NCBI GenBank assembly: GCA_964017185.1
Contig: OZ024880.1
Span: 39,460,329-39,524,328 of the forward strand
Source of the DNA: Rugalucina vietnamica
Lineage: Eukaryota > Mollusca > Bivalvia > Lucinida > Lucinidae
Direction of reading: 5' to 3'
Length of the DNA: 64,000 nucleotides
Position 1 is the first letter of the stretch, and every line of letters starts with the position of its first letter. Position numbers and translations under genes: made by a program. The notes under the pieces are model-generated. The model made no database searches, was not told where the DNA came from, and saw nothing but the letters and a program-made list of their open reading frames with translations. Shown in pieces: positions 9,233 to 61,102 of this stretch.

Positions 9233-9483
9233 TCACTGTTGTGAGGTCAGTGCCCTGCCCCTATGATTTACATCTCTCATTGGCTGCTTTATCCATGCCC
9301 TCTTACTTACGTCTTCTCTCATTGGCTGGTTCATCAGCTGTGGCAGGAAACTAGAGTACTGTCCCTTGGAAGCACCAGGTGGTGGGGGCATAGCACGGTT
9401 CAGTGAGGAGACCCGCTGGGGGACCATAGGACTCCTAGGTACATCTGTACTTATCACAGGTTTGCTATATGGCATGTCATAGA
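9233..9483 (-). CDS. robo: Robo exon 25: proline-containing tail, last visible exon
   Basis: Enters in phase 1 after ATTCCAG. Encodes VYDMPYSKPVISTDVPRSP, then SLNRAMPPPPGASKGQYSS and FLPQLMNQPMREDV. If unspliced, the frame stops at TGA 9233-9235. If the GTAAGT at 9305-9310 is used, the exon ends at 9311 in phase 0 and the gene continues below 9.3 kb. About 40 bp around this donor are repeated just downstream with a decayed GTAAAT. That is the pattern seen at real exon edges in this gene and favours splicing. MPPPPG may be a proline-rich binding motif. Confidence 0.85.
9235..9325 (-). repeat. ~40-bp tandem duplication of exon 25 donor region
   Basis: On the minus strand, CAGCCAATGAGAGA recurs 42 bp apart, followed by GTAAGTAAGAGGGC in the first copy and GTAAATCATAGGGG in the second. 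It marks another exon-end duplication. Confidence 0.75.
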
Positions 9484-9852
9484 CTGGAATGAAGATTTCA
9501 AGATTAAAAGTTATGGAGAATACATATTTTTTACAGTGAAACTACATGTATGCCAGTGCAGGGCATATTTTGCTGAGCAGAAACGCAGACAACGATTGTA
9601 GGAAGAATGTCCAGCAAATATGATAACCCGATAGGATACTGAACTGTTTACAAAGGTATAAAAGTCTGTTAGTCCATCTATCCCAATATGAAGAAATACT
9701 AAAACTGCTACAGCTACGTAACTTTGTGAATTATACATTATCATTTTCATCAGAGACATCTGATTACCATCATGATTAATTCAATTTCTTGTTTTACATC
9801 CCCCTCAACAGATACGGTCACAATCATGATTGACAATGAGCATCATTCTCAC

Positions 9853-9930
9853 CTCCAGAACTGGAATTATCTTTACTGTTTGGCTGTTCTTCACTGGGTT
9901 CTTTCAGAGTATTCCCCCTTGATGGTTTTC
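9853..9930 (-). CDS. robo: Robo exon 24: C-terminal tail
   Basis: 78-nt exon, phase 1 to 1, encoding GKPSRGNTLKEPSEEQPNSK and DNSSSG. Acceptor TATTCCAG, donor GTGAGA. Polar and low-complexity. Accepted on splice sites and phase fit between exons 23 and 25. Confidence 0.8.
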
Positions 9931-9965
9931 CTGGAATAGAGATCAGGGTAAGCCATCAAATATAT

Positions 9966-10183
9966 GAGCCCCATCATAAGAAGTCCAGATTTTTGCCTGT
10001 GCCAAAACCAAGGTGCAGATCAGCTGTGATCAGTGCCTTTAACTTGCTACACAGATAGTACAATTCCTCCTCTACTTATACCCAAAATTTCAAGATTATA
10101 ACTCTTCTTCTGTGTGGGTATAGGCCCGTTTGTGTCAGACCTGGTCAGAAATCCTGAAGACCGGTTTTATCGCATCGCGGCTC
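9966..10183. mobile_element. 235-bp MITE (family A) copy 6
   Basis: GAGCCCCATCATAAGAAGTC to TTTATCGCATCGCGGCTC. ATAT on both sides. Lies in the intron between exons 23 and 24. Confidence 0.85.
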
Positions 10184-10414
10184 ATATTATTCAAACACCA
10201 CCAAAGAGCACATTCAGTTTTACTCATTTCATAAAAGAAAGTTAAAGTTAGTTTGTAAGTAAGGTACAGATTATGTTAGTAATATACAGATATAACATCT
10301 ATTCAAAACATAGAAAATGCTCTAATGTGACTGGGTCTTGTGCATTTATAAGTATTTTATATTTTTATTTAAAAAAAAAAAAAAACAACAACAGATATTC
10401 ATAAAATACCAAGG

Positions 10415-10480
10415 TAGAGATGGTTCTGTCCCAACATGACTTAAAAATTGTTGACTAGGACGTTAAGCAATAATCATAAC
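10415..10480 (+). repeat. SINE 3' fragment
   Basis: Matches the SINE end (TCCCAACATGACTTAAAAATTG..GGACGTTAA). Truncated, no tRNA-like head. Confidence 0.65.
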
Positions 10481-10555
10481 TAAACATTATGCCGAGGTAA
10501 TTAAATATTTCTGACGAAATATTCATGAATACAAGGCGAAACTCTACAAAACAAA

Positions 10556-12316
10556 CCTTGTTCTGCTAACTGTTTCTTTCTCTCTGACTTTGGATAAGGT
10601 TTATGTACCATGTCTAGAGAGCCATAGTTACTATCTGTACCTACCTTGTTCTGCTAACTGTTTCTTTCTCTCTGACTTGGGGTAAGGTTTATGTACCATG
10701 TCTATGGAGCCATAGTTACTATCTGTACCTACCTTGTTCTGCCAGCTGTTTCTTTCTCTTTGACTTGGGGTAAGGTTTATGTACCATGTCTATGGAGCCA
10801 TAGTTACTATCTGTACCTACCTTGTTCTGCTAACTGTTTCTTTCTCTCTGACTTGGGGTAAGGTTTATGTACCATGTCTATGGAGCCATAGTTACTATCT
10901 GTACCTACCTTGTTCTGCTAACTGTTTCTTTCTCTTTGACTTGGGGTAAGGTTTATGTACCATGTCTAGAGAGCCATAGTTACTATCTGTTCCTACCTTG
11001 TTCTGCTAACTGTTTCTTTCTCTCTGACTTGGGGTAAGGTTTATGTATCCTGTCTAGAGAGCCATAGTTACTATCTGTACCTACCTTGTTCTGCCAGCTG
11101 TTTCTTTCTCTCTGACTTGGGGTAAGGTTTATGTACCATGTCAATAGAGCCATAGTTACTATCTGTACCTACCTTGTTCTGCCAGCTGTTTCTTTCTCTC
11201 TGACTTGGGGTAAGGTTTATGTACCATGTCAATAGAGCCATAGTTACCATCTGTACCTACCTTGTTCTGCCAGCTGTTTCTTTCTCTCTGACTTGGGATA
11301 AGGTTTATGTACCATGTCTATGGAGCAATAGTTACTATCTGTACCTACCTTGTTCTGCTAACTGTTTCTTTCTCTCTGACTTGGGATAAGGTTTATGTAC
11401 CATGTCTAGAGAGCCATAGTTACTATCTGTACCTACCTTGTTCTGCCAGCTGTTTCTTTCTCTCTGACTTGGGGAAAGGTTTATGTACCATGTCTATGGA
11501 GCCATAGTTACTATCTGTACCTACCTTGTTCTGCCAACTGTTTCTTTCTCTCTGACTTGGGGTAAGGTTTATGTACCATGTCTATAGAGCCATAGTTACT
11601 ATCTGTACCTACCTTGTTCTGCTAACTGTTTCTTTCTCTCTGACTTGGGGTAAGGTTTATGTACCATGTCAATAGAGCCATAGTTACTATCTGTACCTAC
11701 CTTGTTCTGCTAACTGTTTCTTTCTCTCTGACTTGGGGTAAGGTTTATGTACCATGTCTAGAGAGCCATAGTTACTATCTGTACCTACCTTGTTCTGCCA
11801 GCTGTTTCTTTCTCTTTGACTTGGGGTAAGGTTTATGTACCATGTCTAGAGAGCCATAGTTACTATCTGTACCTACCTTGTTCTGCTAACTGTTTCTTTC
11901 TCTCTGACTTGGGGTAAGGTTTATGTACCATGTCAATAGAGCCGTAGTTACTATCTGTACCCACCTTGTTCTGCCAACTGTTTCTTTCTCTCTGACTTGG
12001 GGTAAGGTTTATGTACCATGTCAATAGAGCCGTAGTTACTATCTGTACCTACCTTGTTCTGCCAGCTGTTTCTTTCTCTCTGACTTTGGATAAGGTTTAT
12101 GTACCATGTCTATAGAGCCGTAGTTACTATCTGTACCTACCTTGTTCTGCCAGCTGTTTCTTTCTCTCTGACTTGGGGTAAGGTTTATGTACCATGTCTA
12201 TAGAGCCATAGTTACTATCTGTACCTACCTTGTTCTGCCAGCTGTTTCTTTCTCTCTGACTTGGGGTAAGGTTTATGTACCATGTCTATGGAGCCGTAGT
12301 TACTATCTGTACTGTA
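10556..12316 (-). repeat. 88-bp x ~20 tandem array of exon 23 3' end plus donor
   Basis: About twenty units spaced 88 bp (for example ACCTTG at 10555, 10643, 10731). Each is the last 78 nt of exon 23 (26 codons, SNYGSIDMVHKPYPKSERKK...) plus a 10-nt spacer, GTAGGTACAG. That spacer is a consensus donor running straight into an AG. A 10-nt intron cannot be spliced by the normal spliceosome, and reading through the spacer gives TAG. The last copy has a different donor context (GTTTGT). Copies differ at a few positions (GCTAAC/GCCAGC, CTATGG/CTAGAG/CAATAG). Confidence 0.95.
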
Positions 12317-12363
12317 GCCAGGGCTAACAGGACGGGCAGGCCGACGATGACGCTTCTCTTTTT
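12229..12363 (-). CDS. robo: Robo exon 23: C-terminal tail, at head of 88-bp array
   Basis: Phase 1 to 1. Encodes KKEKRHRRPARPVSPGYSTD, then SNYGSIDMVHKPYPKSERKKQLAEQG. Acceptor TTATTCAG (12364-12371), donor GTAGGT (12223-12228). Its last 78 nt are the founder of a tandem array running down to 10556. Only this copy has the true acceptor and 5' part. Confidence 0.9.
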
Positions 12364-12585
12364 CTGAATAAAAAATAAACAATTTTTATTCACCGACACT
12401 TGGATCAAAATGTATAAATGCGACTTCTCTGGATAAATAAGCCAATATTATATAGAAGCATCTTCACTACACCTACTGAATATTCTTCAAGCAACACTAT
12501 AATTGCTTTAGTCTATCACACAATTCTGAATCATAGAAAATAATGTTTGCTCCCACATAAACCTACAACAAAAACTGTGACTTAC

Positions 12586-12759: not shown

Positions 12760-12826
12760 CTAGAAATAAAGCGGATAATGTAAGGCATTTGTTTTTTTCT
12801 TCAGTACCTGCATTTACCGTATTCGT

Positions 12827-13166: not shown

Positions 13167-13334
13167 TATGTATCAAAGTTATCTCTTAGCATTTGATCAT
13201 AGTATCTGTTAATTATGAGTAAATAACACTTTGTTTCATTAAGGCAGTCTGACTGTACCCCAATGAGACATCAGGGATAGATCCAGGTTTTGAGAAAGGG
13301 GGTTCATATTTGATTTTACACATTTTTTCTCAAA

Positions 13335-13446: not shown

Positions 13447-13570
13447 ATGACATCTAAAATGTGCTCCAGATATAACCACCCAAGTAAGCCAATAAGGCTT
13501 ATATGTATTGACATCCAAAATGTGCTCCAGATATAACCACCCAAGTAAGCCAATAAGGCTTATATGTATG
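13447..13570. repeat. ~62-bp tandem duplication
   Basis: ACATCYAAAATGTGCTCCAG..AATAAGGCTTATATGTAT is present twice in a row with almost no difference, indicating a recent duplication. Confidence 0.85.
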
Positions 13571-14482: not shown

Positions 14483-15419
14483 CTGTCAGGGTAAAGAGAA
14501 TTATTAACACACTCTGGGGCCAGATTGGGCAGTGAGGACTGACACGCCCTGTCCATACACACTCCATCTTCCTCTAACCCCATCCCCGAATCATGTTCAC
14601 AATGTCTGCAGGGTGGGGCAGGGCCCGGGCCCCACTCATTCTCACCAATAAATCTATAGTCTGGATTAGGAGTCCATTTAGGCTCCCCGCCTGATCTATA
14701 ATCTTTTTCACTATTTGTTATTCTATAGTCTTTATCACTATTTGATGGTATATAATTTTTATCACTCTGTGTTATAACGTCTCTTTCAGTTTGTGGTGTA
14801 ATCCTATAGGATTGAAAACATGGTAAATTGCCTTCATTATCACTGTGGGAACTATGTGAAGATCTATTGAGATTCACAGGTCCTTTCTGGGAAGCACTAT
14901 AATTTATATTAGGGGTTATTCTAGGGGGCTGGGAATACTGGTAGTTAGGGGTCCCTCTAGGGGACTGCACATGACTACAGTTTTGTATATTTCTATTATT
15001 CAAGTTTTGTAACATTATAGTCCTAGGAGACTGTGCCTGTTGCACCACATAAGGATTTTGAGGATAAACTCCCTGTATTACAGTGGGGTCAAAGTATTTC
15101 TCGGAGTTACAATGTGGACACTCATTGTCTGAATACACAGGCATATTCCATCCCGACACGGGAGTCTGTGTATGTGGATTAGGACAAGAACACGCAGACA
15201 CTTGAGAGAATGAAACTGGAGACATTGGTGTCTGTGGACTTTGTGTTGCATCATGGGTAGTACCTCTCACTTCCTGGTAAGAGGGTGGCTCCCCACACTC
15301 ACTGGGAGGGGGGTGTTCAGGGGGCGGGGGAAGAAATTCTGATAAATTCACTGGTTTATTCTGTACACTCTTTTTAAGGTTGTGTTTCTTTCTCTGTTTG
15401 ATCAGTAAACCATTTTCAT
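14483..15419 (-). CDS. robo: Robo exon 20: large tail exon with CC2 (LPPPP)
   Basis: 937-nt exon, phase 1 to 2. Opens DENGLLIKQRKKHNLKKS (basic), then VNLSEFLPPPPEHPPPSE, the CC2 motif that recruits Ena/VASP EVH1 domains in known Robos. It continues with a low-complexity region rich in Ser, Asn, Pro and Tyr: three QSPR/PPR-T-P type repeats, three 9-residue repeats around SDKDYR, CRHCEHDSG and DRACQSSLPNLAPE. Acceptor CTTTTCAG, donor GTGAGT. No catalytic domain, as expected for Robo. A GTG at 15349-15351 is an internal Val codon, not a start. Confidence 0.95.
14675..14780 (-). repeat. 27-nt x 3 coding repeat (SDKDYR-type) in exon 20
   Basis: Three direct 27-nt units encode SDKNYIPSN, SDKDYRITN and SEKDYRSGG. 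Each has a Tyr after an acidic/Lys segment. A further looser unit, NPDYRFIGE, follows. The repeat may be a set of tyrosine phosphorylation or docking sites, but that is inference. Confidence 0.8.
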
Positions 15420-16438: not shown

Positions 16439-16486
16439 CTGTATATATTAAACAAAATATGTTTATCACAGTCTAAACTTCATTAT

Positions 16487-16721
16487 GAGCCGCGTCATGA
16501 GAAAACCGGATTTTTGCCTAGGCGAAAACAAAGGCGCAGATCAGCTTCGCGGTAACCGCGAAGCTGATCAGCGCCTTTGTTTTCGCTACTCGGATAGTAC
16601 AATTCCTCTTCTTTCTAAATCCAAAATTTCAAGCTTCTAGCTCTTTTCTGAGCTTGTACAGGCCGGTTTGTGTCGGACCTGGTCGGAAACCCCGAAGACC
16701 GGTTTTCTCGCGTCGCGGCTC
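16487..16721. mobile_element. 235-bp MITE (family A) copy 7, best preserved
   Basis: GAGCCGCGTCATGAGAAAAC to TTTTCTCGCGTCGCGGCTC, TTAT on both sides. The central palindrome CAGCTTCGCGGTAACCGCGA and both GCGCCTTTGTTTTCG-type inner repeats are intact. Confidence 0.92.
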
Positions 16722-16871
16722 TTATTGTTCTACTGTATAGTTTAAGTAGCTATATTACCAAAGCTTTTAAAATTGCACGATTAGACGTCTAAATTAAAAC
16801 ATATACATGTAACTGCTTCAGACGTAATTTACTTTTGTTTTAAAAATTCCAATTACAAGAGATAAACATAA

Positions 16872-18325
16872 CCAGAGGACCAATGGTCCTGTAAACGCTC
16901 ACCTGAGACCTGAGATACCAATAAACTTATTTGACTAGAATGGTAATATACATGTATATAACCCCAGGGCAGGGTCAGAGCAACCTCTGGAGTCATTTTT
17001 TTTTTAAATCATAAAAATTCAGTCCATTTGCCAATTTACTGCAAGTTTAGTCCTTCAAATGACATTGTAACAATTATCATAAAATAGGTCAAGGTCATCC
17101 AAGGGTCATGATTTATATAAACTTTGTAGAGCTCCACTGCCTGATGCTTCATGCCAAGTTTCAAAATCATAGGCCATCTGGTTCTGGAAGAGAAGATTCT
17201 TATATGTTTTTTGCTAATTATAGCCATGGCAGCCATCTTGGTCATGTGACCTGGACCATTTAATATAAACTTATTTTCCCTCTTCCTAAGGATGCTCCAC
17301 ATGAAGTTTGGCTTTGATTGGCCAAACGGTTTCAGAGGATTATGGAAATATACATGTATATAGCCCCGGGGAAGGGGCAGACAACCCCCAGGGGCCAAAA
17401 TTTTTCCATAAACATTAATTTTCTGTCTAATTGCCTATTCCCAGTAAGTTTTACCCATTTAATAGCATTTTACCATTTTTCCCCATTCAAATGCATTGGC
17501 GACCCAAGTTGACCTTGCCGTAAAATAGGCCAAGGTCATCGCAGGGTCATGATTTATATAAACTTTGTAAAGCTTCTTTCTGTGATGCTTCATGCCAAGT
17601 TTCAAAATCATAGGCCTTCTGGTTCTGGAGATGAAGATTTTTAAAGGTTTTTGCTATTTATAGCCATGGCGGCCATCTTGGTCATGTGACCTTGACCATT
17701 TATATAAACTTTCATTCCCCCTTCCCATGGATGCTCCATATGAAGTTTGGCTTTGATTGGCCTAGCGGTTTCAGAGAAGAAGATGTTTGAATATTATGGT
17801 CATATACATGTATATGGCCCCGGGGCAGGGGCAGACAATCCCCCAGGGGCTAAAATTTTCCATTAACATTAATCTTCTGTCCATTTGCCTATTCCCAGTA
17901 AGTTTTACCCATTAAATAGCATTTTACCATTTTTTCCCATTCAAATGCATTGGCGACCTAAGTTGACCTTGCCGTAAAATAGGTCAAGGTCATCCTAGGG
18001 TCATGATTTATATAAACTATGATGGGCCCGCGTCCCCAATGCTACATACCAAGTTTCGTGGAAATCGGCCCACTGGTTCTGGAGAAGAAGATTTTTAAAG
18101 GTTTTTGCTATTTATAGCCATGGCGGCCATCTTGGTCACGTGACCATTTATATAAACTTTCGTTCCCCCTTCCTAAGGATGCTCCACATGAAGTTTGGCT
18201 TTGATTGGCCAAGCAGTTTCAGAGGAGAAGATCTTTGAAATTGTGAACGACGGACAACGGACGGACGGATGCCGGAGCATGGGTATACTATAAGCTCACC
18301 TGTGAGCCTTCGGCTCAGGTGAGCT
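16872..18325 (+). repeat. Hairpin-ended interspersed repeat with ~3 internal 400-460-bp units
   Basis: Units beginning near ATATACATGTATATGGCCCC recur at about 16947, 17348 and 17804, each with CATGGCGGCCATCTTGGTCA. The 3' end is the hairpin GAGCCTTCGGCTCAGGTGAG. Layout (tandem core plus terminal hairpin) recalls bivalve pearl-type / Helentron-associated elements; that assignment is inference. Confidence 0.75.
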
Positions 18326-18405
18326 AAAAACTTGTTTCATGTAACAGCCCTACAATAATCCAGCATGCCTCTGGGTCCGCTTCACTCCCCCAAATGAAAA
18401 CCTAC

Positions 18406-18535
18406 CCTTTGTCTCATGAGATTCTGTTGTTGTTGTTGTATGACAGTGGTGGTAGCGTAAGGAGCCACAGGGTCGACCTGGTAGAACGTCTTCAAATCAG
18501 GATACCCCAAACTACTGCCACCTTGTACAAGTTAT
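18406..18535 (-). pseudogene. Partial CC1 exon copy (relic) with frameshift
   Basis: Same orientation as exon 17 and very similar to its 3' part: VDPVAPYATTTVI, a five-Gln run, NLMRQR and the GTAGGT donor. Upstream, a one-base deletion after the LYKVA-like codons shifts the frame and gives TGA, and no acceptor is seen because the similarity breaks at 18535. It lies just outside the left arm of the foldback element (18566-20893). Confidence 0.88.
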
Positions 18536-18565
18536 CTCACCAACCCCACCCTCACCCCAATACAC

Positions 18566-20893
18566 GGGTGGTAAAGTTTGGAACGACCTCCAAAAAGAGG
18601 TAGTGAATTTCTGTTCCAATCGCACATCCGGGAACTCGTGAGGTTGGTCCAAAGGCTAGAAACGGATAAACAAAGGTAGGTGTCGGTGGTTCTTTTGACT
18701 TTTTTCTAAGTTTCTAGTGAAAAATGGATAATTATGGCAATGCTATGTAGTGTAAAGATGACTTCTCGATGCATACGGCCCAAAACTGCGATTGAAACCG
18801 AAATAATTTCCGCTGGGTCGTTTTTAAAAGGTCGAACACGATGTTGAATTTCACAGCAGTTTGTCAACAACTGACACCTTTTTGCAAAATGTGTGGTTTT
18901 CAAAAAGAATACAGCCCCAGTACGCTCGCCCTGGGAAAACGAGCACTCTGTATTACATATCCTGTTAAAAATGGCCACGGGGCGCATTTTTTAAACAAAT
19001 GATTGAGAAAATTCCAGTAGAGGTCGTTGCAATAAGTTGGAGATTGTTCCAATTTGAATGAGATTGTTCCCAGTGCTCTCCTGTTTTATACAATGAAATT
19101 AATATCTGTGTTATCAGATCAGCCAAACTCAGACAAAAATGATGGCGTTTGAAATATTGTAATATTTTGGGGTTTGAAAGCGATTCTCCTGATAGCTTGC
19201 TAATGACCGTTAGTAAGCGGTTTGTGGCTTGTGATTTAAACTTGAATTGTTCTTTGCAGATCTTCAGATAGTTTCTTATTCCTACTTTTATGTGTAAACC
19301 GATTTTCATGTCTTGTTGCTCTTTTTAAGAATTTTGGAATGCAAAAGGATTGTGACACGATCATATTTTTCTTGATGTATTTCAGGAAATGGTGATTTTG
19401 AAAAAAGTGTCAGAAAACTATTGCAAAGACAGTACATGCGATTCTTGCTTTGTCGGGTTTTCGTGTCGTAAATTGTTTCACTCTTACTGTTGTTAAATAT
19501 ACTAAACAAAAGTGAAATGGCTACACATACACTCCAACAAAAGCCCATCTGAAATATACCAAAATTCAATTCAAGGGACCCAAGCGTAGAGTTTAAGAAA
19601 CATGAATGAATCATTTTCATAACGCATCATCTCGATGTGAGATGTCTAGTAAAATAAAATAAAACAAATAAAAATAAGAAGTACCAAACAGGGGTGTAGT
19701 CTACAATTTCATTTCTATATAAGAAAACACTGCAAACAATTTCATATACATTGTAATTTGGAACGATATTGCATCAAATATTCAATCAGTCCAAGTGGAC
19801 TATGAAAGGCTACGAGTTTGATCCCCGGCTGGGATATGGTCGGGTATGACTGGCACAGCTGGCAAGCCAGCGAGCTGAAATTAGCTGAAATTGAGGACCC
19901 AGGCCAGATGATTTTTTTTATTCTATTATGTACTTTGTCAATGAGGACTGAGAAGGAGCAATTGTAACACAGAAAAGTATTTGTATTAAACAAAATTATA
20001 TTATCAAAAATTTGCTTTTATTGACTATTTTGCTGTGTTTTTTCACAACACGAATGTAAAAAAGGCAAAAATGGACAATTAAAACACAGAAAAAAGTCAC
20101 TATAAGCAAAATTTGATAAATCTTGTTTCATACAAATACTTTTCTATGTAGCATAAATGCTACATATCAATCGTCATTGGCAAATTATACAATAGAACTA
20201 TAAAATTCTGGATCGTCAATTTAAGCCTATGCGGCTTGCCAGCTTTACCCGATCCGGGATATGCCTGCCATGTTGGTGACACAATGTTCATCCGGATTCA
20301 ATAAATGTCAACCGCCCATTTTTGTCTGAGTTTGGCTGGTCTGATATCACAGATATTAATTTCATTGTATAAAATAGGAGAGCACTGGGAACGATCTCAT
20401 TCAAATTGGAACAAGCTCCAACTTATTGGAACGACCTCTACTGGAATTTTCTCAATCATTTGTTTAAATAATGCGCCCCGTTGCCATTTTTAACAAGATA
20501 TGTAATGCAGAGTGCTCGTTTCCCCAGGGCGAGCGTACCGGGGCTGTATTCTTCGTGGAAAACCCCAAATTTTGCAAAAAGGTGTCAGTTGTTGACAAAC
20601 TGTTGTGAAAAAGCAACATCGTGTTCGACCTTTTAAAAACGACCCAGCGGAAATTATTTCGGTTTCAACCGCAGCTTTGGGCCCTATGCATCGAGAAGTC
20701 ATCTTTACACGACATAGCATTGCCATAATTATCCATTTTTCGCTAGAAACTTAGAAAAAATAAAAAGAAACAGCGACACCTACCTTTGTTTATCCGTTTC
20801 TAGCCTTTGGACCAACCTCGCGAGTTCCCGGATGTGCAATTGGAACAGAAATTCACTACCTCTTTTTGGAGGTCGTTCCAAACTTTACCACCC
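18566..20893. mobile_element. Foldback-type element with ~582-bp inverted arms
   Basis: Left arm 18566-19147 and right arm 20313-20893 are near-complete inverted copies beginning GGGTGGTAAAGTTTGGAACG. The roughly 1.16-kb spacer between them has no recognisable transposase. Arms differ by scattered substitutions and small indels, so the element is not brand new. I see no clear target duplication. It sits in the Robo intron after exon 17, with a CC1 exon relic on its left and the true CC1 exon 17 bp beyond its right end. Open frames in the arms have no family match. Confidence 0.88.
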
Positions 20894-20909
20894 ATGCATT
20901 AGAACCTAC

Positions 20910-21112
20910 CCTTTGTTTCATGAGATTCTGTTGTTGTTGTTGTTGTATGACACTCGTGGTGGCGTATGGAGCCACAGGGTCGACCTGGTAGAACGTTTTC
21001 ACATCAGGATACCCCACGCTCCCCGCCACCTTGTACAAATTCTCTCCCTTCATTTCCTGTTCTTTCTTCTGCTGTGGCAACAAAACTCGGAATTCTGCTG
21101 GTACATCAAGAT
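20910..21112 (-). CDS. robo: Robo exon 17: cytoplasmic motif CC1
   Basis: Phase 1 to 0. Encodes DLDVPAEFRVLLPQQKKEQE, then GYPDVKTFYQVDPVAPYATT with SVI, a six-Gln run and NLMKQR. PYATT is the Robo CC1 tyrosine motif, a phosphorylation site in known Robos. Donor GTAGGT, acceptor TTTACAG. The 5' end is tandemly copied at 21130-21186 (a stop follows). A 3' partial copy lies at 18406-18535, beyond a foldback element. Confidence 0.93.
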
Positions 21113-21129
21113 CTGTAAATAGACATTAT

Positions 21130-21186
21130 GTTGAATCTGCTGTGGCAACAAAACTCAGAACTCTGTTGGCAGGTCAAGATCTATAT
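21130..21186 (-). pseudogene. Tandem copy of CC1 exon acceptor and 5' end
   Basis: About 68-bp direct duplication of the exon 17 start (21061-21112) with its acceptor. In the matching frame it reads DLDLPTEF and then TGA, so it cannot serve as a coding start of the exon. Confidence 0.85.
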
Positions 21187-21299
21187 ACATTGTGTTGAGT
21201 GACAGTCTTTCAATGCTTAAGTTGTAACAAAACATCACATAGAAAATACAACAGCATTGGCAGTATAATTGTCAGTCACGTTCTTGACTTCTCGGCTAT

Positions 21300-23026: not shown

Positions 23027-23188
23027 CTCCAGAATAATATCTTTTCTCTTTCATTTTCTTCTTATTTTTCCTCCGTTTACACAACCAGACGGTCAGTATA
23101 CACAGTATCAACCACAACATGCCCCCCACCGTCCCAATCAACACTCCGATAAACCATGGCTTCTTCATTAATTCCGATGGTTCTGATT
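23027..23188 (-). CDS. robo: Robo exon 15: transmembrane helix and stop-transfer
   Basis: Phase 1 to 1. Encodes ESEPSELMKKPWFIG, then the hydrophobic VLIGTVGGMLWLILCILTVW, then the very basic CKRRKNKKKMKEKRYYSGG stop-transfer stretch. This sets the topology with N-terminus outside. Acceptor TTTCCCAG at 23189-23196, donor GTAGGG. Tandem copies of its 5' part lie upstream to about 23610, two of them with the same acceptor. Confidence 0.94.
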
Positions 23189-23610
23189 CTGGGAAAAATA
23201 AAGATACATTATCAGTATACACAGTATCAACAACGAAATGGCCCCCACAGTCCCAATCAGCACTCCGACAAACCACGGCTTCTTCATTAACTCTGATGGT
23301 TTTGATTCTGGGAAAAATAAAGATACATTGTCAGTATACATAGTATCAACCACAACATGCCCCCACTGTCCCAATCAGCACTCCGATAAACCACGGCTTA
23401 TTCATTAACTCTGATGGTTCTGATTCTGGGAAAGATAAAGATACATTGTCAGTATACATAGTATCAACCACAACATGCCACCCACAGTCCCAATCAAGAC
23501 TCCCATAAATCAAATGCCTCTTGCTTTGATTCTGGGAAATATAGAGATACATTGTCAGTATGCACAGCATCATTCACAATGTGCCTTCCACCCTCCCAAT
23601 CACACTACTA
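23189..23610 (-). repeat. Tandem copies of membrane exon 5' part, ~119-bp unit
   Basis: Acceptor-like CTGGGAAA (plus strand) recurs at 23189, 23308, 23426 and 23532, giving units of 119, 118 and 106 bp plus a decayed fifth fragment. Each unit holds polypyrimidine tract, AG and the part of the exon that encodes the membrane helix, but no donor. Copy 2 (exon start 23307) encodes PWFVGVLIGTVGA with LLILCILIMYLYFS and then stops at 23168. Copy 3 (exon start 23425) stops inside the helix. Confidence 0.93.
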
Positions 23611-24380: not shown

Positions 24381-25092
24381 TTGTCCAGACAGACAGATGA
24401 GCTCAAGTTTTATTGTGAAGATGGTGCCAAATATCAATGTGATAAATGTGGAAACTTGTACCAAACGTGTACCAAACTTGTACCAGACAGACAGATAGAT
24501 TAGAAGCTCAGTTTTATTGTGGAGATGGTGCCAAATATCAATGTGATAAATGTAGAAACTTGTACCAAACGTGTACCAAATTTGTACCGGCCAGACAGAT
24601 AGATTAGAAGCTCAGTTTTATTGTGGAGATGGTGCCAAATATCAATGTGATAAATGTAGAAACTTGTACCAAACGTGTACCAAACTTGTACCAGACAGAC
24701 AGATAGATTAGAAGCTCAGTTTTATTGTGGAGATGGTGCCAAATATCAATGTGATAAATGTAGAAACTTGTACCAAACGTGTACCAAATTTGTACCGGCC
24801 AGACAGATAGATTAGAAGCTCAGTTTTATTGTGGAGATGGTGCCAAATATCAATGTGATAAATGTGGAAACTTGTACCAAACGTGTACCAAATTTGTACC
24901 GGCCAGACAGATAGATTAGAAGCTCAGTTTTATTGTGGAGATGGTGCCAAATATCAATGTGATAAATGTAGAAACTTGTACCAAACGTGTACCAAATTTG
25001 TACCGGCCAGACAGATACATTAGAAGCTCAGTTTTATTGTGGAGACGGTGCCAAATATCAATGTGATACATGTGGAAACTTGTACCACACAT
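24381..25092. repeat. 104-bp x ~7 intronic tandem array
   Basis: Unit with CAGACAGATAGATTAGAAGC and TTGTACCAAACGTGTACCAA. Copies start near 24385, 24483, 24587 and every 104 bp. Near-identical units, no splice sites, not coding. Lies in the 5.5-kb intron between exons 13 and 14. Confidence 0.9.
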
Positions 25093-25545: not shown

Positions 25546-25566
25546 TTTAAATGTTTTCCGATAAAT

Positions 25567-25800
25567 GAGCCGCCCCGTGGGAAAACCAACAATCTGCATA
25601 GGCGAAAACAAAGACGCAGATCAGCTTCGCGGTAACCGCGAAGCTGATCAGCGCCTTTGTTTTCGCTACACGGATAGTACAATTCCTCTTCTACTTAAAT
25701 CCGAAATTTCCAGCTTCTAGCCCTTAACTGTGATAGTACAGGTTGGTTTGTGTCAGACCTGTTCGGAAACCACATTGTTGGTTTTCCCACGAGGCGGCTC
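25567..25800. mobile_element. 235-bp MITE (family A) copy 8
   Basis: 234 bp, GAGCCGCCCCGTGGGAAAAC to GTTTTCCCACGAGGCGGCTC, AAAT on both sides. Represents the GTGGG/CACGAGG TIR subtype. Confidence 0.92.
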
Positions 25801-26077
25801 AAATGTAATGTAATATTCTAAACCCCTTTACCATCTGTCATATGAGTTCATTATGCCATCATGGTATTGTGTAGGTTTCCCATTTGGATAAATCATTTAT
25901 AACATAATGCATTATCTAAACAAAACATCCCCATTGTTTCCATAAAATTTATAGTCTTAAGTGTTTTTTATTTCTTGTTTTGTATGAAAGCAAAGCTATT
26001 ACTATGAATGTCCTTTATAATATTTTAATGCAAAATCACATTAAATATACCAATACTAGAAATATGTTCATGAATTT

Positions 26078-31764: not shown

Positions 31765-31886
31765 CTTCCAAGTAACAGAGATAGCAGTAGAATTGACAGA
31801 CTTGGCAATCACAATATCTACCACATTGCCCTCCAATCTTTGTTCTAGTTCAGTCTTAGGAATATTAGACCTTGCAGGATGTGACC
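31765..31886 (-). CDS. robo: Robo exon 10: FN3-2, first half
   Basis: Phase 1 to 0. Encodes SHPARSNIPKTELEQRLEGN, then VVDIVIAKSVNSTAISVTWK. It aligns with the start of Robo FN3-2, where a Q.EL.G.VV...N pattern precedes the core Trp. Donor GTAGGT (31759-31764); nearest acceptor GTTACAG (31887-31893). Only this copy ends in a real donor. Eight further copies of the acceptor-side unit lie upstream to about 32925, so the true 5' boundary of the transcribed exon may be any of several array acceptors. Confidence 0.88.
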
Positions 31887-32925
31887 CTGTAACTGTAAAT
31901 ATAACAGAGATAGCAGTAGAATTGACTGACTTGGCCATCACAATATCTACCACATTGCCCTCCAATCTTTGTTCTAGTTCAGTCTTAGGAATATTAGACC
32001 TCGCAGTATGTGACCCTGTAACTGTAAATATAACAGAGATAGGAGTAGAATTGACTGACTTGGCCATCATAATATCTACCACATTGCCCTCCAATCTTTG
32101 TTCTAGTTCAGTCTTAGGAATATTAGACCTTGCAGGATGTGACCCTGTCACTGTAAATATAACAGAGATAGCAGTAAAATTGACTGACTTGGCCATCACA
32201 ATATCTACCAAATTGCCCTCCAATCTATGTTCTAGTTCAGTCTTAGGAATATTAGACCTTGCAGGATGTACCCCTGTAACTGTAAATATAACAGAGATAG
32301 CAGTAGAATTGACTGACTTGCCCATAACAATATCTACCACATTGCCCTCCAATCTTTGTTCTAGTTCAGTCTTAGGAATATTAGACCTTACAGGATGTGC
32401 CCCTGTAACTGTAAATATAACAGAGATAGCAGTAGAATTGACTGACTTGCCCATAACAATATCTACCACATTGCCCTCCAATCTTTGTTCTAGTTCAGTC
32501 TTAGGAATATTAGACCTTACAGGATGTGCCCCTGTAACTGCAAATATAACAGAGATAGCAGTAAAATTGACTGACTTGGCCATCACAATATCTACCACAT
32601 TGCCCTCCAATCTATGTTCTAGTTCAGTCTTAGGAATATTAGACCTTGCAGGATGTACCCCTGTAACTGTAAATATAACAGAGATAGCAGTAGAATTGAC
32701 TGACTTGCCCATAACAATATCTACCACATTGCCCTCCAATCTTTGTTCTAGTTCAGTCTTAGGAATATTAGACCTTACAGGATGTGCCCCTGTAACTGTA
32801 AATATAACAGAGATAGCAGTAGAATTGACTGACTTGCCCATAACAATATCTACCACATTGCCCTCCAATCTTTGTTCTAGTTCAGTCTTAGAATATTAGA
32901 CCTTGCAGGATGTGACCCTGTCATT
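31766..32925 (-). repeat. 129-bp x 9 in-frame tandem array of FN3-2 exon
   Basis: Nine units with acceptor junctions at 31886 and every 129 bp to 32918, the last shifted to 32917 by a 1-bp deletion. Each unit holds a TTTACAGTTACAG acceptor-like site plus the exon, but the donor occurs only in the copy nearest 31765. The unit is 43 codons without stops in the receptor frame. One frame on the opposite strand is also open over about 1.1 kb. Seven extra copies stay in frame. The outermost copy has lost one base in the run before its Pro-Lys codons and would stop early. Each copy carries an N-S-T glycosylation sequon. Confidence 0.95.
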
Positions 32926-33143
32926 GTAAAACATTGAAAATGAAATGAGCACCCCAGTCGTAACTCATATTGCAAATAAAATAACTTCCATTGCAAATAA
33001 ACATCAGAAATCCTATTTTTTTCCCTAGACAGTTATAAATATTCTGATAATTGAAAATTCAAAGACCAATTATAGGGATCAAACATGCCTTTTCATGCAT
33101 TAACATTTGAGGAAGTTGTTTGAACCTGAGGCCACCAATTTAC

Positions 33144-34434: not shown

Positions 34435-34524
34435 CTTCAACTTTGAGATAAGAGTCCCAGGTTGTTTCCCCTGCCTCACTAACAGCTTTACATGTGTAGA
34501 TGCCTGTGTCAGATATCTTCAAAT
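34435..34524 (-). CDS. robo: Robo exon 7: Ig5, C-terminal part
   Basis: Phase 1 to 1, 90 nt. Encodes DLKISDTGIYTCKAVSEAGE with the second Ig5 Cys, then TTWDSYLKVEG. Acceptor TTTTCAG, donor GTGAGT. It completes the fifth Ig domain. Confidence 0.92.
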
Positions 34525-34700
34525 CTGAAAATGAGATATCACAAATAGAGATATCTGAAAATCGGAAAAAGAGATCATGAATAACAAAGAAGAAACTTTA
34601 CAAGAAATCTTAATTTGTAAGTAATTATTTTCTAAAAAATAGTGAAATGAAATTCATCCAACAAATGTAGCAGATATCAATATTTTTTAATTAGATCTAC

Positions 34701-36330: not shown

Positions 36331-36650
36331 GCTTCTGAAAATTGCATGGGCGTGTTTTCGAAATGTAAAAGGCTTTTTTTTTTCTTTTTTTTTTTCTAAA
36401 AATCCTCCCATTTTCTTTTGTCTGGAGAACTACTTTACTTACTTAAGTACAGACAGCTAATTGAAATCAATTAAAATCTTCTTGCAAACTATTTGAGCTT
36501 ACACATGGCCACAGACAATCAAATTTTAGCAGACTGAAAAAATTGATGTAGCAAATTGAGCTAAACAAAAGACTAGATTTCAATGTGTGAGTGAAAGGCA
36601 AACCATGTGAAAAGTACAGGCTGAGGAGTGTCTTCATTTGAATACAATTT

Positions 36651-36885
36651 AAGCCTGTGCATGAGAAAACCAACAATTTGGGTTTCCGACCAGGTCCGAC
36701 ACAAACCAGGCTGTACAGTCACAGAAGATGGCTAGAAGCTTGAAATTTCGGATTTAAGAAGAAGAGAAATTGTACTATCCGTGTAGCAAAAACAAAGGCG
36801 CTGATCAGCTTCGCAGTTACTGCGAAGCTGATCTGCGCCTTTGTTTTCGCATAGGCAAAAATCCGGTTTTCTCACAATGCGGCTC
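36651..36885. mobile_element. 235-bp MITE (family A) copy 11
   Basis: 235 bp, AAGCCTGTGCATGAGAAAAC to GGTTTTCTCACAATGCGGCTC, ATTT on both sides, intact central palindrome. Confidence 0.9.
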
Positions 36886-37243
36886 ATTTAATAGTGGCTT
36901 TTTGTTTGTTTTCTGACATGCAGTGGCTTTCAGAGTGCAAGAAAGAAAAAAATGAAACTAAGCACATATGTTAATCTCATTTTGAAAACAGTTGTAAATG
37001 CTTTTCTAATTTTCTTTTCATCTCATGTAACATCTGAGCTGCCGAGCTAGGAAATAATTTTCTTCCAGTTACACAATTACACAAAGGAATCTAATTAACC
37101 AAGTTATTAAATAACCTAATTGTTTTAGATGGAGTTATCATTGGCTTGTTAAGTTGGTATCTTTCGTTTGAAGAATGAACATATAGCTTTGACTGTGGTA
37201 CTCCCACAGCCTTCCCTATTATTCTACATGCATATGAGGCTAA

Positions 37244-42583: not shown

Positions 42584-42639
<56 letters not shown>
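42584..42639. repeat. A56 homopolymer
   Basis: Uninterrupted 56-A run. The Phe-rich open frame on the minus strand is an artefact of it. Length may be a sequencing estimate. Confidence 0.95.
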
Positions 42640-42880: not shown

Positions 42881-43365
42881 GTTACCCTTGAAATGCATTT
42901 TCATCAAAAATCTGTCTTTGAATCATTACCCTGCATTTATATTCTGATTCAGAATCAATGATGATCAACATATCAGCACAATACTAAAACTGCAAAAAAT
43001 AAATGCCAAAAAACTAATTTGCAAATGCAAAAAATAAAGGAGAAAAAAAGCAATTTGATTTCAAGTCATGCTAGGAAGGGTGAAGAAAGCTGTTAGGTGA
43101 TAATAGCTTAAGTTAATAGAATTTCTGTTATGTGAAGATGAGCAAAAACTAATGTGATGACAGGATGATATCAAAAATAATGACTGCCAGAATTAAAAAG
43201 CAATTATATCTTATTGCTTTTCCAATAATTCCTTCCTAATTCCATCAGTACCAAACCTTTGACTTGAGTAATATGCAAATTGTGGTGCAATAGCTTCATA
43301 AATGGCATATTTGAATCTGCATTTGATGATTAACTGCAAATCTTACTCATTTGAAGAACACATTT

Positions 43366-43599
43366 GAGCCGCCTCATGGGAAAACCAACAATCTGCATAG
43401 GCGAAAACAAAGACGCAGATCAGCTTCGCGGTAACCGCGAAGCTGATCAGCGCCTTTGTTTTCGCTACTCGGATAGTACAATTCTTCTTCTACATAAATC
43501 CGAAATTTCAAGCTTCTAGCTCTTTTCTGTGCTTGAACAGGCCGGTTTGTGTCGGACCTGTTCGGAAACCACATTGTTGGTTTTCACACGAGGCGGCTC
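43366..43599. mobile_element. 235-bp MITE (family A) copy 14
   Basis: GAGCCGCCTCATGGGAAAAC to GGTTTTCACACGAGGCGGCTC, ATTT on both sides, perfect central palindrome. Confidence 0.92.
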
Positions 43600-43677
43600 A
43601 TTTCTCTAAAAGGAGCAAGAGAAAGGATTCTGACACAGAATTTAACTGCACAAGCTAAGAAGTATAGAAATATCCAA

Positions 43678-44001: not shown

Positions 44002-44161
44002 CTCTGACTTCAACTGTAGCAGAAGCGGATGCCTGTCCCCGTATGTTGAGAGCCTCACACTTGTAAACACCAGCGTCGTCATATGTGACGTCAGAGATAC
44101 GAAATGTGCCGTCCTCGGAGACAGAGGAACGTCCCTCATCACGATTAGGGAACATCAAACT
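44002..44161 (-). CDS. robo: Robo exon 5: Ig4, second half
   Basis: Phase 0 to 1. Encodes SLMFPNRDEGRSSVSEDGTF, then RISDVTYDDAGVYKCEALN with the second Ig4 Cys, and ASASATVEVRG. The donor is GTTAGT (43996-44001), weaker than the others; the acceptor is ATTACAG. A decayed copy of the 5' half of this exon with its own acceptor-like AG lies immediately upstream at 44186-44267. Confidence 0.93.
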
Positions 44162-44185
44162 CTGTAATACATAACATGGGAATTC

Positions 44186-44273
44186 TATAAGTGATGTTAG
44201 AGATACCGAATGTACCGTCCCCACAGACGGAGTAAAGCCCCTCATTACATTTAGGAAACATCAAACTCTGAAA
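44186..44273 (-). pseudogene. Decayed tandem copy of Robo exon 5 acceptor and 5' half
   Basis: Sequence similar to 44080-44161 repeated 106 bp upstream. It starts after TTTCAG at 44268 and encodes SLMFPKCNEGLYSVCGDGTF in the matching frame. The 106-bp offset is not a multiple of three, so use of this acceptor would run into a stop shortly inside true exon 5. It is one of the exon-boundary duplications found across this gene. Confidence 0.85.
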
Positions 44274-45624
44274 CACATTGCACCAACATCTATGAAAACT
44301 ATAGATGCATCACAAACATTGTAAGATCAGCATACAACTAGCCACATTTTACTAAGGCATGTGGCACTCCCAATACCTTCCATTTAACTACTTTAGCATT
44401 TATGAACGACTGGCTGGTTTGAATTGTTTGGAAATCAGAATTATCAACCAAACTGTCCTTGGGGCCTTAATATTTTTTCTAGGCGGAATAATTCATTAGA
44501 TATCAATTAATGGAAAAGAAACTGTCCTATCAATTAATTGATAAGGGGTTTTTCGGTATTAGTATAAGAAGCTCTATTTGGAAGCGGAAAAAAAGGCTCA
44601 ATACGGGGTGCTGGAAATTATCTAAAGCTAGTTCTTCTTGAGTTTGTAGCGAATTGTTTAATTACAGCTTGTTGATATATCACGTAAACATATTTGAATG
44701 ATTTTTCTTTGTTCTTAACAGTTTTCTTGTATATTTTCTTGTTTATTTACTTGTCAATTTTACTTATGTACTTGTTCTGTCTATTTTCATGGTCAATCTG
44801 TTTTCCCTGTATGGGGCCTCTATTTGCCTCTCCACAGCCTAAAACAAAATGTCTGCCATTAATTTTTAACTGAATCAATTAGAAATATTTTTTTGTTTTA
44901 TTAGTTACTGGATATCAGTTTTGTCAAATCAGAGGATAGGGAGAAGGATTAATGTGCTTAGTTTTTCTAACAATAGTTCTTATTAATGAGATTTATTTTG
45001 CTTCATGTAAATCATTGACTCATAGACTGTGACTGTATAAGCTGACCTACTTTTCATCAATAACTTGACAAAGGAATTTCTACTAGGTAAAGTCACTTGC
45101 ATGGTTTGTCAGATGTATAATATCTTGATATATTTATTATGAAGTTTTTCTTTGTTTACCATTGCTGCTTTATCTGAATCTGAATAGTTTACTGGTGAGA
45201 CGCCAAATGACAATATTTCACCAGGGTTTAAGTTTTAAGACTTTCATATACCGGTAGGTACCGTAGATTATCAAATCCACCATTTTCTAGATTGATGTTT
45301 ACCTTACGTGAAAAAAGAAAAGATTAAAGAAATGTGAGTTTAAAACTGTATCCCTCTTTCTATTTATAAATGATTGTCAATGCAGAGAACTGTTGAATAT
45401 TTGGAAATAAAATTGTGGGATATTTCATGATTTTTAGGTCACCAGGTGACTAGATTTCTTGCAAAAAAGTATTCTGTCTGTATATAAAAGTACAAGCTTT
45501 TCAAAAAGCTTGTCAAAAAAAGCTTGTCATCAGAATCAATAGTTTACTTGTGAAACTTTAAATTGACTGACAATACCACACCAGGGGGATGAGGCTTGAC
45601 CGGTCGGGATTAGTCCTGAGCTCT

Positions 45625-56914: not shown

Positions 56915-56920
56915 ATTTAC

Positions 56921-57515: not shown

Positions 57516-57887
57516 CTGAAAATATACAAGAAAAGATGGTCCCAAAAGTTGAACTGGAAGCCTTCTTTGCCATGCTTCATTTTCCATGCTCACCATCGTC
57601 AGCTTAGTAAGATATGTTGTGAACCCTGAAGGGGTCCATAAGTTACTCTAGAAATCCCAGCCCCTAAGGTTAACTATGATCCATTGTCAAGCCTGGAAAT
57701 GGATTTAAATATAAATATAATGCGAAACTATGGAGGATATTGTCATGGTACCCACTTGCCAACCTGAACCCCGTCTATCTGAGACCCTCTCAGTTCATGG
57801 GCTCATTTGATGTAGGGTGAATAAAAGTATGTAGAGACCAAGTTCTTATAGGAAGCAACAGTTCTTATTATAAAGCCTGTTTCTGAG

Positions 57888-58115
57888 TTAACTCATTTAA
57901 GCCTGGCATCCCTTTTATGGGACATAGGCAAACAGAATAGCCCTAGATGTGACGCCGCAGAACGCGGCGTCCCATCTGGGGCTATCCTGTTTGCTTAGAG
58001 AATTTTCATTGAAAAATTGAATAAAATTTAAAAATCACTCCTGACGCCCCTAAAAATGAAAGTGGACTCACACTAATGATAATGGTGAGAAAATCCATTC
58101 GTCAAATATGGGTTA
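57888..58115. mobile_element. MITE family E copy 2
   Basis: TTAACTCATTTAAGCCTGGC to AAATATGGGTTAA with GACGCCGCAGAACGCGGCGTC hairpin. About 228 bp; same as 27101-27329. Confidence 0.82.
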
Positions 58116-59415
58116 AGCTCTTACACAATGACACATCATCAATCATAAACCATCATAACAACTGTGACTAAGCTACTTGAGCTGCTGTCAAGAGTCTCTT
58201 CACCTAAATCTCAAAGACTTCCAGGGACAGGAAATAAATTTTACAGAATTAACAGGAGGTTGGGCGTGTAAAGACTGAGATCAGTCTGGATATGTTGTCA
58301 GTGACTAAGCTACTTGAGCTGCTGTCAAGAGGCTCTTCACACAGATCTCTTTGAAAACTTCCTGAAATCTATATAGGATGCCAATTCTGTGACAACTGGG
58401 CCTAACAAAGACTCTGATCAGTTACTTCACCATAACTATGTTACTGGAGTTGATTTTGTCAAGGTCTAGTCAGGACTCTGATCAGTCACTGTCAAAGAAA
58501 ACTTTCTGGAAATTATCTGAGATGCCAAGGCTGTGACTTTGAAGACCAGGAATCATTCTTCACCCTCATTGGTAGGCATGCTAACAACAGTCATGAGTCT
58601 GATCACCAAGACATTGAGCAACATTAAATGATCTGTGAAGACGCTAGGACGCTGTTCAAGCCCAGGATCAAGGGCCACATTCTTTCCTCATTCAAGAAGC
58701 TCTTGAGACACTAAGATAGCTAAATACTTGACTAATTACTAGAGGAGGCCAGCATCAAAGTGATATACCAGCCAACATAAGCATCTTTGTGTGAACCATC
58801 AGCTCATTGTTACAATAAGAAGATTCTACATTCCTATATGAAGTTAATTTATTTTCTTTCTGTAAATGACTACTGACAGACAAAAGTCATAACAGAATCC
58901 TTTTCCTAGAATACGAATATAGCAAGAAATTTGTATGAGAATGCTGAAGGTAATGGTTCCAGACTTTTGAATCAAGTAGAACAAAGACTTGAGAACATTT
59001 TTATAAGGCCGATGATAGTTCCATAAAACTTGTGTTCTGATAGACCAGTGTTTAGCCAATTCGGCAGTACCACAAAGTATCTCCAATAAGGTTCATTTCT
59101 CAATTTCATTTTAAAAACATACCAAAGGCCAAAAGTCTAGGCCATTAACAAACAGAAGATAGATACATGTCAAAACTTTTCACTACTGATATAAACACTA
59201 TCCAGACATCAAAACCTCAAAATATAAACTAAACTGTAATGCCCTGCAAACAAATCTTTCATCCAATATGCCAGAAAATATAAAGGTAAAATGGCCACTG
59301 AATGCCAACTTATCATTGTACTGTAAATATTTGGTGCTGCTATGCCAAAATGTCTTGAAAATCATTTTAGTTTCCATCCCAGATGCTATGAGCAACAACC
59401 CCACCCGTCCCAAAC
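58116..59415. other. Intron 2/3 remainder
   Basis: Contains a diverged direct repeat (CTAAGCTACTTGAGCTGCTGTCAAGAG at 58168 and 58303). Otherwise nothing seen. Confidence 0.45.
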
Positions 59416-59421
59416 ACTTAC

Positions 59422-59560
59422 CTTCCAAAACTGACTGCCCCATCTTCTTTGCTCCACTGAACTTTGATGGGCGGGTCCCCCATGACATCACAGTAAAACT
59501 CGACTGTCTTTCCTTCTTCTGTTGTCACGTCTTTAGGAAGTTTTTGGAACTTTGGAACAT
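59422..59560 (-). CDS. robo: Robo exon 2: Ig3, first half
   Basis: Phase 1 to 2. Encodes VPKFQKLPKDVTTEEGKTVEFYCDVMGDPPIKVQWSKEDG in short: the first strand set of Ig3 with the Cys in FYCDV and core Trp in VQWSK. The donor is GTAAGT (59416-59421) and the acceptor TTGTAG. Known Robos also split Ig3 across exons. Confidence 0.94.
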
Positions 59561-59591
59561 CTACAACAGACAATAGTGAATTTACATGTAT

Positions 59592-59796
59592 GTGTGTGTG
59601 TTGAGGCTTAACGTCCCAGTCAACAATTTTTCAGTCATGTCGGGACAGAGCCAACGCTTCCTGGGTTTAACCAGTACTGTAGGGAGTTAATGTGTCTTGC
59701 TCAAGGACACAACACGCTGACGCCTGTGGGGATTGAACCCAGGACCTCTCGATTAGGAGCCTGACGCTCTACCACTACCCCACCGCGCTCCCTGAA
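59592..59796 (-). mobile_element. tRNA-derived SINE, near complete, 10-bp target duplication
   Basis: Inverse of the 8915-9116 SINE, including GACGCTCTACCACTACCCC (A-box inverse) and GGGATTGAACCCAGGACCTC. TTACATGTAT at 59582-59591 recurs at 59797-59806. Its tail end lies 32 bp upstream of the exon 2 acceptor side (exon start 59560). Confidence 0.9.
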
Positions 59797-60261
59797 TTAC
59801 ATGTATAAGTGAAATACTATGTGTGCATACTATTTTGACATCTGTGTACTCTATTATTTTCAGATTTTACACCTATATATTCATGACACCCTGCTTTTTA
59901 GGAACAAAAAATGAGCTAATTAGAGTTATTGAGCAGTGTTTATCGTTTGTAATTTTCACCTTGAATATGGAAATACATTAACATACACCTCTAGAGACAC
60001 ATTGCTGTGTTTCAAACATCTGTAACATGGTTTTGTGACCAATATTTAAGTTGCGAGTAAACCCAAAAGATTTAGAGTAAATTCTTGTTGTATTTTTGGA
60101 ATCATGAATATTAAAACAATCCAGCATCTGTCAAGGTCTTTGGCTCTTCAAGGTGTTTGAATATTTTCACACATTATCAACTATATATTTCTCCTTGGAT
60201 TAATGTGCTTGATTTCTTCAAGTCAGTCTTTCTTATTTGATTCTCCTCTACTGACAAAGTC

Positions 60262-60458
60262 CTATAAAAACACCTTGAAGCAGCCTCTACTTGTTTTGCA
60301 AATACAGAAAACTTAAATGAACAGGTTTTAATCCAGAAATGATTTATTTACATACAAAAATACTCCTGGTACTTACAGGGTTGATTTGCATGCCGGAGTA
60401 TATTTACAGACTGGAGTATATTTACACGCATGTATTTTTTGCGCATGCAAATTGGACT
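60262..60458. mobile_element. Truncated Harbinger-like MITE (right half)
   Basis: ACCTTGAAGCAGCCTCTACTTG to GCGCATGCAAATTGGACT-TTA matches 37779-38002. The left half is missing. Abuts the Ig2 array at 60461. Confidence 0.82.
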
Positions 60459-60460
60459 TT

Positions 60461-60823
60461 AGTCAGTTTCTCTTCGGCGGTGTTACAGACAATAGATCAG
60501 AATGTCCTTACCAAGAACTCATTACTCAGTTTCTCTCCGGCGGTGTTACAAACAATATACCAGAGTGATCCTAGAACTCTGAGCTGAGCAGGACTACAGT
60601 TTCTCTCCAGCAGTGTTACAAACAATATACCAGAGTGATATTAGTACCCTTACCAAGAACTCTGAGCTGAGCAGGACTATTCACTTTCTCTTCGGCAGTG
60701 TTCTATACAATATGCCAGTGTGATATTAGTACCCTTACCAAGAACTCTGAGCTGAGCAGGACTACTCAGTTTCTCTCCCGCAGTGTTCCAAACAATATGC
60801 CAGTGTGATATTAGTACCCTTAC
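60461..60823 (-). repeat. Tandem array of Ig2 exon 3' end plus splice donor, ~84-85 bp unit
   Basis: About four to five copies of a unit containing the end of exon 1 (encoding roughly LSSPAQLRVL) and the following intron start. Copies of the GAACTCTGAG core lie at 60574, 60658, 60742 and 60827, spaced 84-85 bp. Several copies keep a GTAAGG donor. The unit is not a multiple of three, and reading through the first donor meets a stop, so extra copies would not lengthen the protein usefully. The far end abuts a truncated Harbinger-like MITE ending at 60458. Confidence 0.88.
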
Positions 60824-61102
60824 CGAGAACTCTGAGTTGAGCAGGACTACTCAGTTTCTCTCCAGCCGTGTTGATAGCTTGACAAGAGTATTCTCCAACA
60901 TCACCCTTAATGACCGACGTTATCACCAGGTCCCCGTCGTCCTGAATCTGGATCCGTTTGTCCGGCTGTACGGACTTCCCGTCCTTCCTCCAGATGACCT
61001 TGGGCTCGGGTTTACCCCTTGGGGGCCGACAGTGGAGGACGGTGGTCTGACCCGCAGCTGTGGTGGTGTCCATTGGTTCTTGGCGAAAATCATCACGCAA
61101 AA
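60824..61102 (-). CDS. robo: Robo exon 1 (in window): Ig2 domain
   Basis: Whole Ig2 domain in one exon (phase 1 to 1). It opens with LRDDFRQEP, the diagnostic start of Robo Ig2, then PPRGKPEPKVIWRKDG with the core Trp, and DVGEYSCQAINTAGE with the second Cys. The acceptor is TTTCAG at 61103-61108 and the donor is GTAAGG at 60818-60823. In known Robos Ig1-Ig2 form the Slit-binding region. The 3' end and donor are repeated downstream as a tandem array (60461-60823). Reading through the donor gives a stop about 20 codons later. Confidence 0.95.

Follow-up and report, generated by a model that had tools for sequence, protein, structure and literature searches.

Why should tandem repeats, each with its own unit, lie over the edges of several exons of a single gene? 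The question is raised by a stretch of 64,000 nucleotides from the bivalve Rugalucina vietnamica (hereafter the window), the minus strand of which carries most of a gene for Robo, an axon-guidance receptor.

The Robo gene and its repeat-bearing exon edges

The exon model was set by hand, guided by tblastn with nine homologues (alignments are listed for three of them), and comprises 25 exons, from E1 at 61102-60824 to E25 at 9483-9311. All 23 exons from E1 to E23 have AG and GT borders, and their phases were also checked; the positions of E24 and E25 were judged visually. No Ig1 exon was found within the window. The joined frame of 1476 codons contains no stop, and its protein matches that of Ruditapes at 857 of 1409 aligned residues. 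The five best named relatives are all bivalves (Ruditapes, Potamilus, Mercenaria, Mya and Dreissena). This single-copy coding sequence has no added peptide at the edges of E1, E5, E10, E15 or E23. Exonic bases account for 4427 of the 51792 bases of the gene span (8.5%), in line with the figure of less than 10% in an earlier note on this DNA. An Rfam scan of the window gave no matches.

We used three repeat detectors, namely TRF, self-blastn and an ungapped offset scan with a score cut-off of 17. The offset scan gave no matches at scores of at least 14 in three block-shuffled control sequences. Six strong head-to-tail direct repeats lie over exon edges, two at donors (E1 and E23) and four at acceptors (E5, E10, E15 and E17) (Table 1). 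TRF lists four of them (E1, E10, E15 and E23), and those of E5 and E17 come from self-blastn and the offset scan. In all six, the unit spans the exon-intron boundary together with its splice signal; the cases of E7 and E25 are weak. A single copy of each array is in register with its exon; the others run into the intron. The exonic share of the unit ranges from 0.58 to 0.95, above half in all six arrays, which a plain model of duplication of any segment lying over an edge does not predict.

The unit lengths of the six agree with those given earlier, including the 88 bp called by TRF, and one of the six is divisible by three. The unit sequence differs from locus to locus in self-blastn, and no exon-overlapping match links two different arrays at an E value of 0.01. 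Together with the copy alignments, this supports the proposal of the earlier note that these are independent local duplications with different units and a common placement. That note had named seven exons; six stand, and the seventh, E25, carries a weak repeat.

Table 1. Exons and repeats of the Robo gene, with positions in the window
Feature	Positions	Strand	Evidence
E1, first Robo exon in the window (Ig2)	60824..61102	-	tblastn model, border check, joined frame
85-bp array over E1 (Ig2) donor	60459..60872	-	TRF, self-blastn, offset scan
E5 (Ig4, second half)	44002..44161	-	tblastn model, border check, joined frame
106-bp two-copy duplication over E5 acceptor	44081..44278	-	self-blastn, offset scan
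Marginal 38-bp pair at E7 acceptor	34511..34575	-	offset scan, score 17 (the cut-off)
E10 (second FN3 domain, first part); acceptor 31892 or 31886	31765..31892	-	
129-bp x 9 array over E10 acceptor	31773..32930	-	TRF, ORF list, copy alignment
E15 (transmembrane exon)	23027..23188	-	tblastn model, border check, joined frame
119-bp array over E15 acceptor	23092..23606	-	TRF, self-blastn
E17	20910..21112	-	tblastn model, border check, joined frame
68-bp two-copy duplication over E17 acceptor	21068..21198	-	self-blastn, offset scan
E17 donor edge (137 exon + 7 intron bases), matching 18399-18538	20903..21046	-	
Direct copy of E17 donor edge, 88% identical	18399..18538	-	edge-targeted blastn look
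E23	12229..12363	-	tblastn model, border check, joined frame
88-bp x 20 array over E23 donor	10555..12312	-	TRF, copy alignment, site scoring
Weak repeat of about 42 bp at supposed E25 donor	9273..9328	-	below offset-scan cut-off

The E25 repeat consists of a 14-bp exact core and a few further bases and is absent from the offset-scan list at score 17. The last residues of the relatives suggest that E25 ends at a GAC^GTAAGT donor (the caret marks the exon edge). Alternatively, the exon may continue past this putative donor as far as a stop codon (ORF 9233-9541), in which case the repeat would contain no splice edge.

The direct copy of the E17 donor edge was kept out of the placement statistics because the search that found it was centred on edges. 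About 2.3 kb separate it from E17, and this interval contains an inverted repeat with arms of about 600 bp that are 94% identical (18559-19155 and 20305-20900). The right arm starts some 10 bp below the E17 donor, and the outer end of either arm is adjoined by a direct copy of the end of exon E17. The edge copy may have arisen by template switching, or from a duplication that an inserted element then divided.

Placement of the arrays relative to exon edges

The excess of arrays at exon edges is modest, and its significance varies with the footprint that is shuffled. When each array was represented by one unit, 6 of 13 arrays of the main set were at edges versus 1.16 expected (P = 0.0003), and the inclusion of weaker matches gave 7 of 18 versus 1.63 (P = 0.0004). 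Removal of dispersed repeats and extra copies, with three edges in masked sequence shifted to the nearest kept base, gave 6 of 14 versus 1.93 (P = 0.006), or 6 of 13 (P = 0.002) without a partly dispersed 454-bp array. On this masked span, arrays of at least 0.89 identity gave 4 of 10 versus 1.21 (P = 0.022). The TRF arrays alone, on the full span, gave 4 of 11 versus 1.03 (P = 0.012). With a two-unit footprint, P was 0.008-0.084. Shuffling of the full array lengths yielded no significant enrichment, with 6 of 13 arrays at edges versus 3.19 expected in the main set (P = 0.06), 7 of 18 versus 3.89 with the weaker matches (P = 0.06) and 4 of 11 versus 2.93 for TRF alone (P = 0.33). We consider the unit to be the fairer footprint, since an array expands once its unit has been fixed; all these P values are optimistic, as the gene was flagged for showing the pattern.

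The arrays might overlap edges by chance, in a gene rich in both tandem repeats and exons. Long arrays readily do so: placed at random, that of E23 would touch an edge 51% of the time and that of E10 42% of the time, and about eight other arrays of the gene are clear of edges. The full-length and two-unit nulls also leave room for this explanation. The unit footprint, in contrast, argues against it in the main sets and, less strongly, for TRF alone and at the higher identity, and we find chance overlap unlikely. The judgement of the earlier note that chance placement is unlikely thus holds for single units (P = 0.0003-0.006), is weaker for two and is lost at full length.

The same note had recognized only two comparable minisatellites clear of exons, a count that the offset scan raises to about eight. 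They are found at 13448 (61 bp), 15827 (51 bp), 16940 (454 bp), 22613 (31 bp), 24406 (104 bp), 48344 (147 bp), 54270 (180 bp) and 45625 (offset 343, 141 bp aligned), and the scan gave further, weaker edge-clear repeats beyond these eight. TRF describes the 104-bp minisatellite as 6.8 copies at 24385-25087 with 96% matches and an inner 11-bp repeat, AAACTTGTACC. The array of units of about 454 bp spans 16940-18242, and 63% of it is covered by similarity elsewhere in the window (e.g. 394-722); hence, it is part of a dispersed family.

Other repeats are present in the window. Many copies of a dispersed repeat of about 240 bp, which is probably a short transposable element, occur in both orientations (5011-5245, 7557-7806, 16481-16728, 25560-25810, 36640-36890, 43357-43606, 62499-62746 and others). 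An in-frame 27-bp repeat (peptides like SDKDYRI and SEKDYRS) lies within coding exon E20 at 14695-14766, and TRF reported homopolymers of 36 G at 3605-3640 and 56 A at 42584-42639.

Alternatively, exon edges of this lineage could be genuine hot spots where tandem duplications arise, for example through breaks or template switching tied to transcription, nucleosome borders or splicing. The one-unit excess of the main set is consistent with this idea, as are the lean of the units to the exon side and the four of six arrays of at least three units that lie at edges (0.77 expected, P = 0.003). The E17 donor copy beside the inverted arms could likewise reflect template switching. However, the two-copy duplications, which are closest to the initial events, are at edges in two of seven cases versus 0.84 expected (P = 0.19), the full-length shuffle gives no significant excess, and the data come from a single gene picked for its pattern. 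We therefore regard hot spots as quite unlikely; on the sequence evidence, a mechanism aimed at exon edges would not be needed.

Spare splice sites and variation among the copies

Splice sites were scored with matrices built from the gene's other 24 exons, with a listing threshold of 2. By manual count, 35 of the 37 spare copies retain GT or AG; the exceptions are one copy of E1 and the fourth copy of E15, which is partial and decayed. We considered selection on the spare sites and rejected it, as we estimate that copies so similar would mostly have kept these dinucleotides anyway. The E1 array consists of the true edge and four spare copies, three of which have TTG^GTAAGG intact, and CCCAG^AATC is intact in three spare copies of E15. 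The two copies of E5 are 79% identical, and the spare one retains TTTCAG^AG. Those of E17 are 82% identical; the spare acceptor has its AG and scores below the listing threshold.

The E10 unit comprises about 15 intron and 114 exon bases (9 and 120 if the first AG is used) and ends 8 bases before the donor, which is outside it. Thus, use of a spare acceptor would only lengthen the exon, in frame. This raises the possibility that spare sites serve to produce alternative Robo isoforms, above all through the insertion of 43-residue in-frame units into the second FN3 domain. Seven of the eight spare E10 acceptors score 10.9-12.3, similar to the true first AG (12.3), and the one farthest upstream scores 3.2. 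The frame is open across all nine copies (382 aa), with a unit of 129 = 3 x 43. However, 4 of the 16 variants among the copies are synonymous (the first 44 bases of copy 1 being excluded from the count), as compared with a random expectation of 25%. This variation looks neutral, and we rejected coding use of the E10 copies on that ground. A random change would create a stop in about 2.6% of cases, so that 16 variable sites would be expected to leave the frame open in any event, and the plus strand over the array is open as well (386 aa). None of the other five units is divisible by three, E10 has a single length in four aligned relatives, and added units would be expected to disrupt the FN3 fold. 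Isoform production from the spare sites is hence very unlikely. As a possible sign of mirages in relatives, 54 of 120 listed Robo proteins were scanned for internal repeats, which revealed no exon-edge tandem repeat among the matches listed (at most the three best for each protein); nearly all were Ig-domain similarities, with one short 15-residue-spaced repeat (P0045).

The E23 unit is made up of 84 exon bases and 4 intron bases (GTAG). Its spare donors are 18 AAG^GT(A/G)GG sites and one AAG^GTTTGT, and 16 of these 19 score equal to the true donor (11.4). The AAG^GTTTGT site ends the last copy and scores 3.5, and the other copies mostly have AAG^GTAGGT, at 11.4. The weak site may be the original donor, so that the duplication would have improved it. 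Seven of 14 variants among the E23 copies are synonymous versus 19% expected (P ~0.01; three sites outside whole codons were set aside), and so are six of the seven changes common to at least four copies. Because synonymous variants are over-represented, the E23 copies are not simply neutral. This excess, which is weak at 14 sites, would most likely come from spare copies exchanging sequence with the working edge, which is under selection.

The copies of the arrays have variants shared in mosaic fashion. This bears on whether copies were collapsed or expanded in the assembly. Assemblies can miscount the copies of near-identical arrays, and our comparison covered the assembled sequence. Nevertheless, the copies differ by these mosaic variants, and an artefact would not give pairs as divergent as those of E5 and E17. 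We thus consider an assembly artefact extremely improbable.

Origin of the arrays and comparison with known systems

The pattern seemed new to the author of the earlier note, yet it matches the mirages described in amphioxus (PMC3087553, PMC3902484). In PMC3087553, mirages are tandem duplications of exon-intron boundaries with their own unit at each locus, found in Adh3 and in the globin genes BflGb9 and BflGb6, the last with haplotypes of 6 and 3 units. The original Adh work is referenced there as Canestro et al. 2002. Globin RT-PCR and Adh3 data suggest that regular splicing is undisturbed, and the authors of that paper proposed that mirages can be seeds of new introns. Mirages of TnC and PGBD5 were added later (PMC3902484). 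A word search of the literature, mostly open access in scope, found no bivalve case.

We think it likely that the Robo arrays are mirage-type minisatellites, i.e. tolerated tandem duplications carrying a splice site, followed by growth through unequal exchange. A 68-129 bp segment with an exon end and its splice site would have been duplicated head to tail, probably by replication slippage or end joining. The outermost copy would stay attached to the exon body and continue as the exon edge. The remaining copies would land in the intron and be spliced out, leaving the protein unaltered, as the conserved joined frame suggests. The nine-copy E10 and 20-copy E23 arrays would then have grown by unequal exchange or conversion, to which their mosaic variants point, while E5, E17 and the distant copies of E1 and E15 would have decayed. 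The open frame, the in-register copies, the retention of most spare sites, the neutral E10 variants, the single unit divisible by three, the mosaics and the like anatomy of the amphioxus mirages all count for such tolerated duplications. The exon-heavy units and the synonymous excess at E23 count against them. The excess at edges would most likely stem from the purging of wholly exon-internal duplications and from the longer recognizability of exon-anchored pairs, since one partner is under purifying selection. A mild real bias to duplicating exonic sequence possibly contributes.

A stronger proposal would be that exon edges of this lineage are genuine hot spots, that its genes continually carry spare sites open to recruitment into longer exons, and that the E10 array, with its seven strong in-frame spare acceptors, is in transition to a variable-length receptor; we see little likelihood of this. 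If mirages are this dense in bivalves, they are not a lancelet peculiarity. The gene offers a natural test of splice choice among near-equal sites, with the E23 donor and 18 spares and the E10 acceptor and seven spares, and also lets changes in intron and exon length be studied. Gene-prediction programs might also annotate false exons at the spare edges.

Among other known systems, intron gain by tandem duplication of AGGT segments, with the potato RdRp case as an example (PMC4974935), similarly involves a duplication carrying splice signals. In contrast, the bivalve copies lengthen an existing intron, and the single-copy model needs no new one. Intragenic minisatellite expansion that can alter gene structure is common to our arrays and to the internal tandem repeats of human segmental-duplication genes (PMC2812944), although the headings of that article's outline do not mention exon edges. 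The likeness to the amphioxus mirages, as far as these are described in the text at hand, extends to tandem direct repeats with a unit over the exon-intron boundary, splice signals in many copies, involvement of both 5' and 3' boundaries, units that differ by locus, an outer copy that is the authentic exon edge, and copies that evolve in concert. Undisturbed splicing and length polymorphism are on record for amphioxus, whereas the bivalve arrays are known from the sequence of one haplotype. The host differs, and so does the density, with six strong cases in one gene versus the single mirage described for each globin gene and the two described for PGBD5. Judged by their sequence, the Robo arrays are a real mirage-type set in another phylum, dense in one gene.
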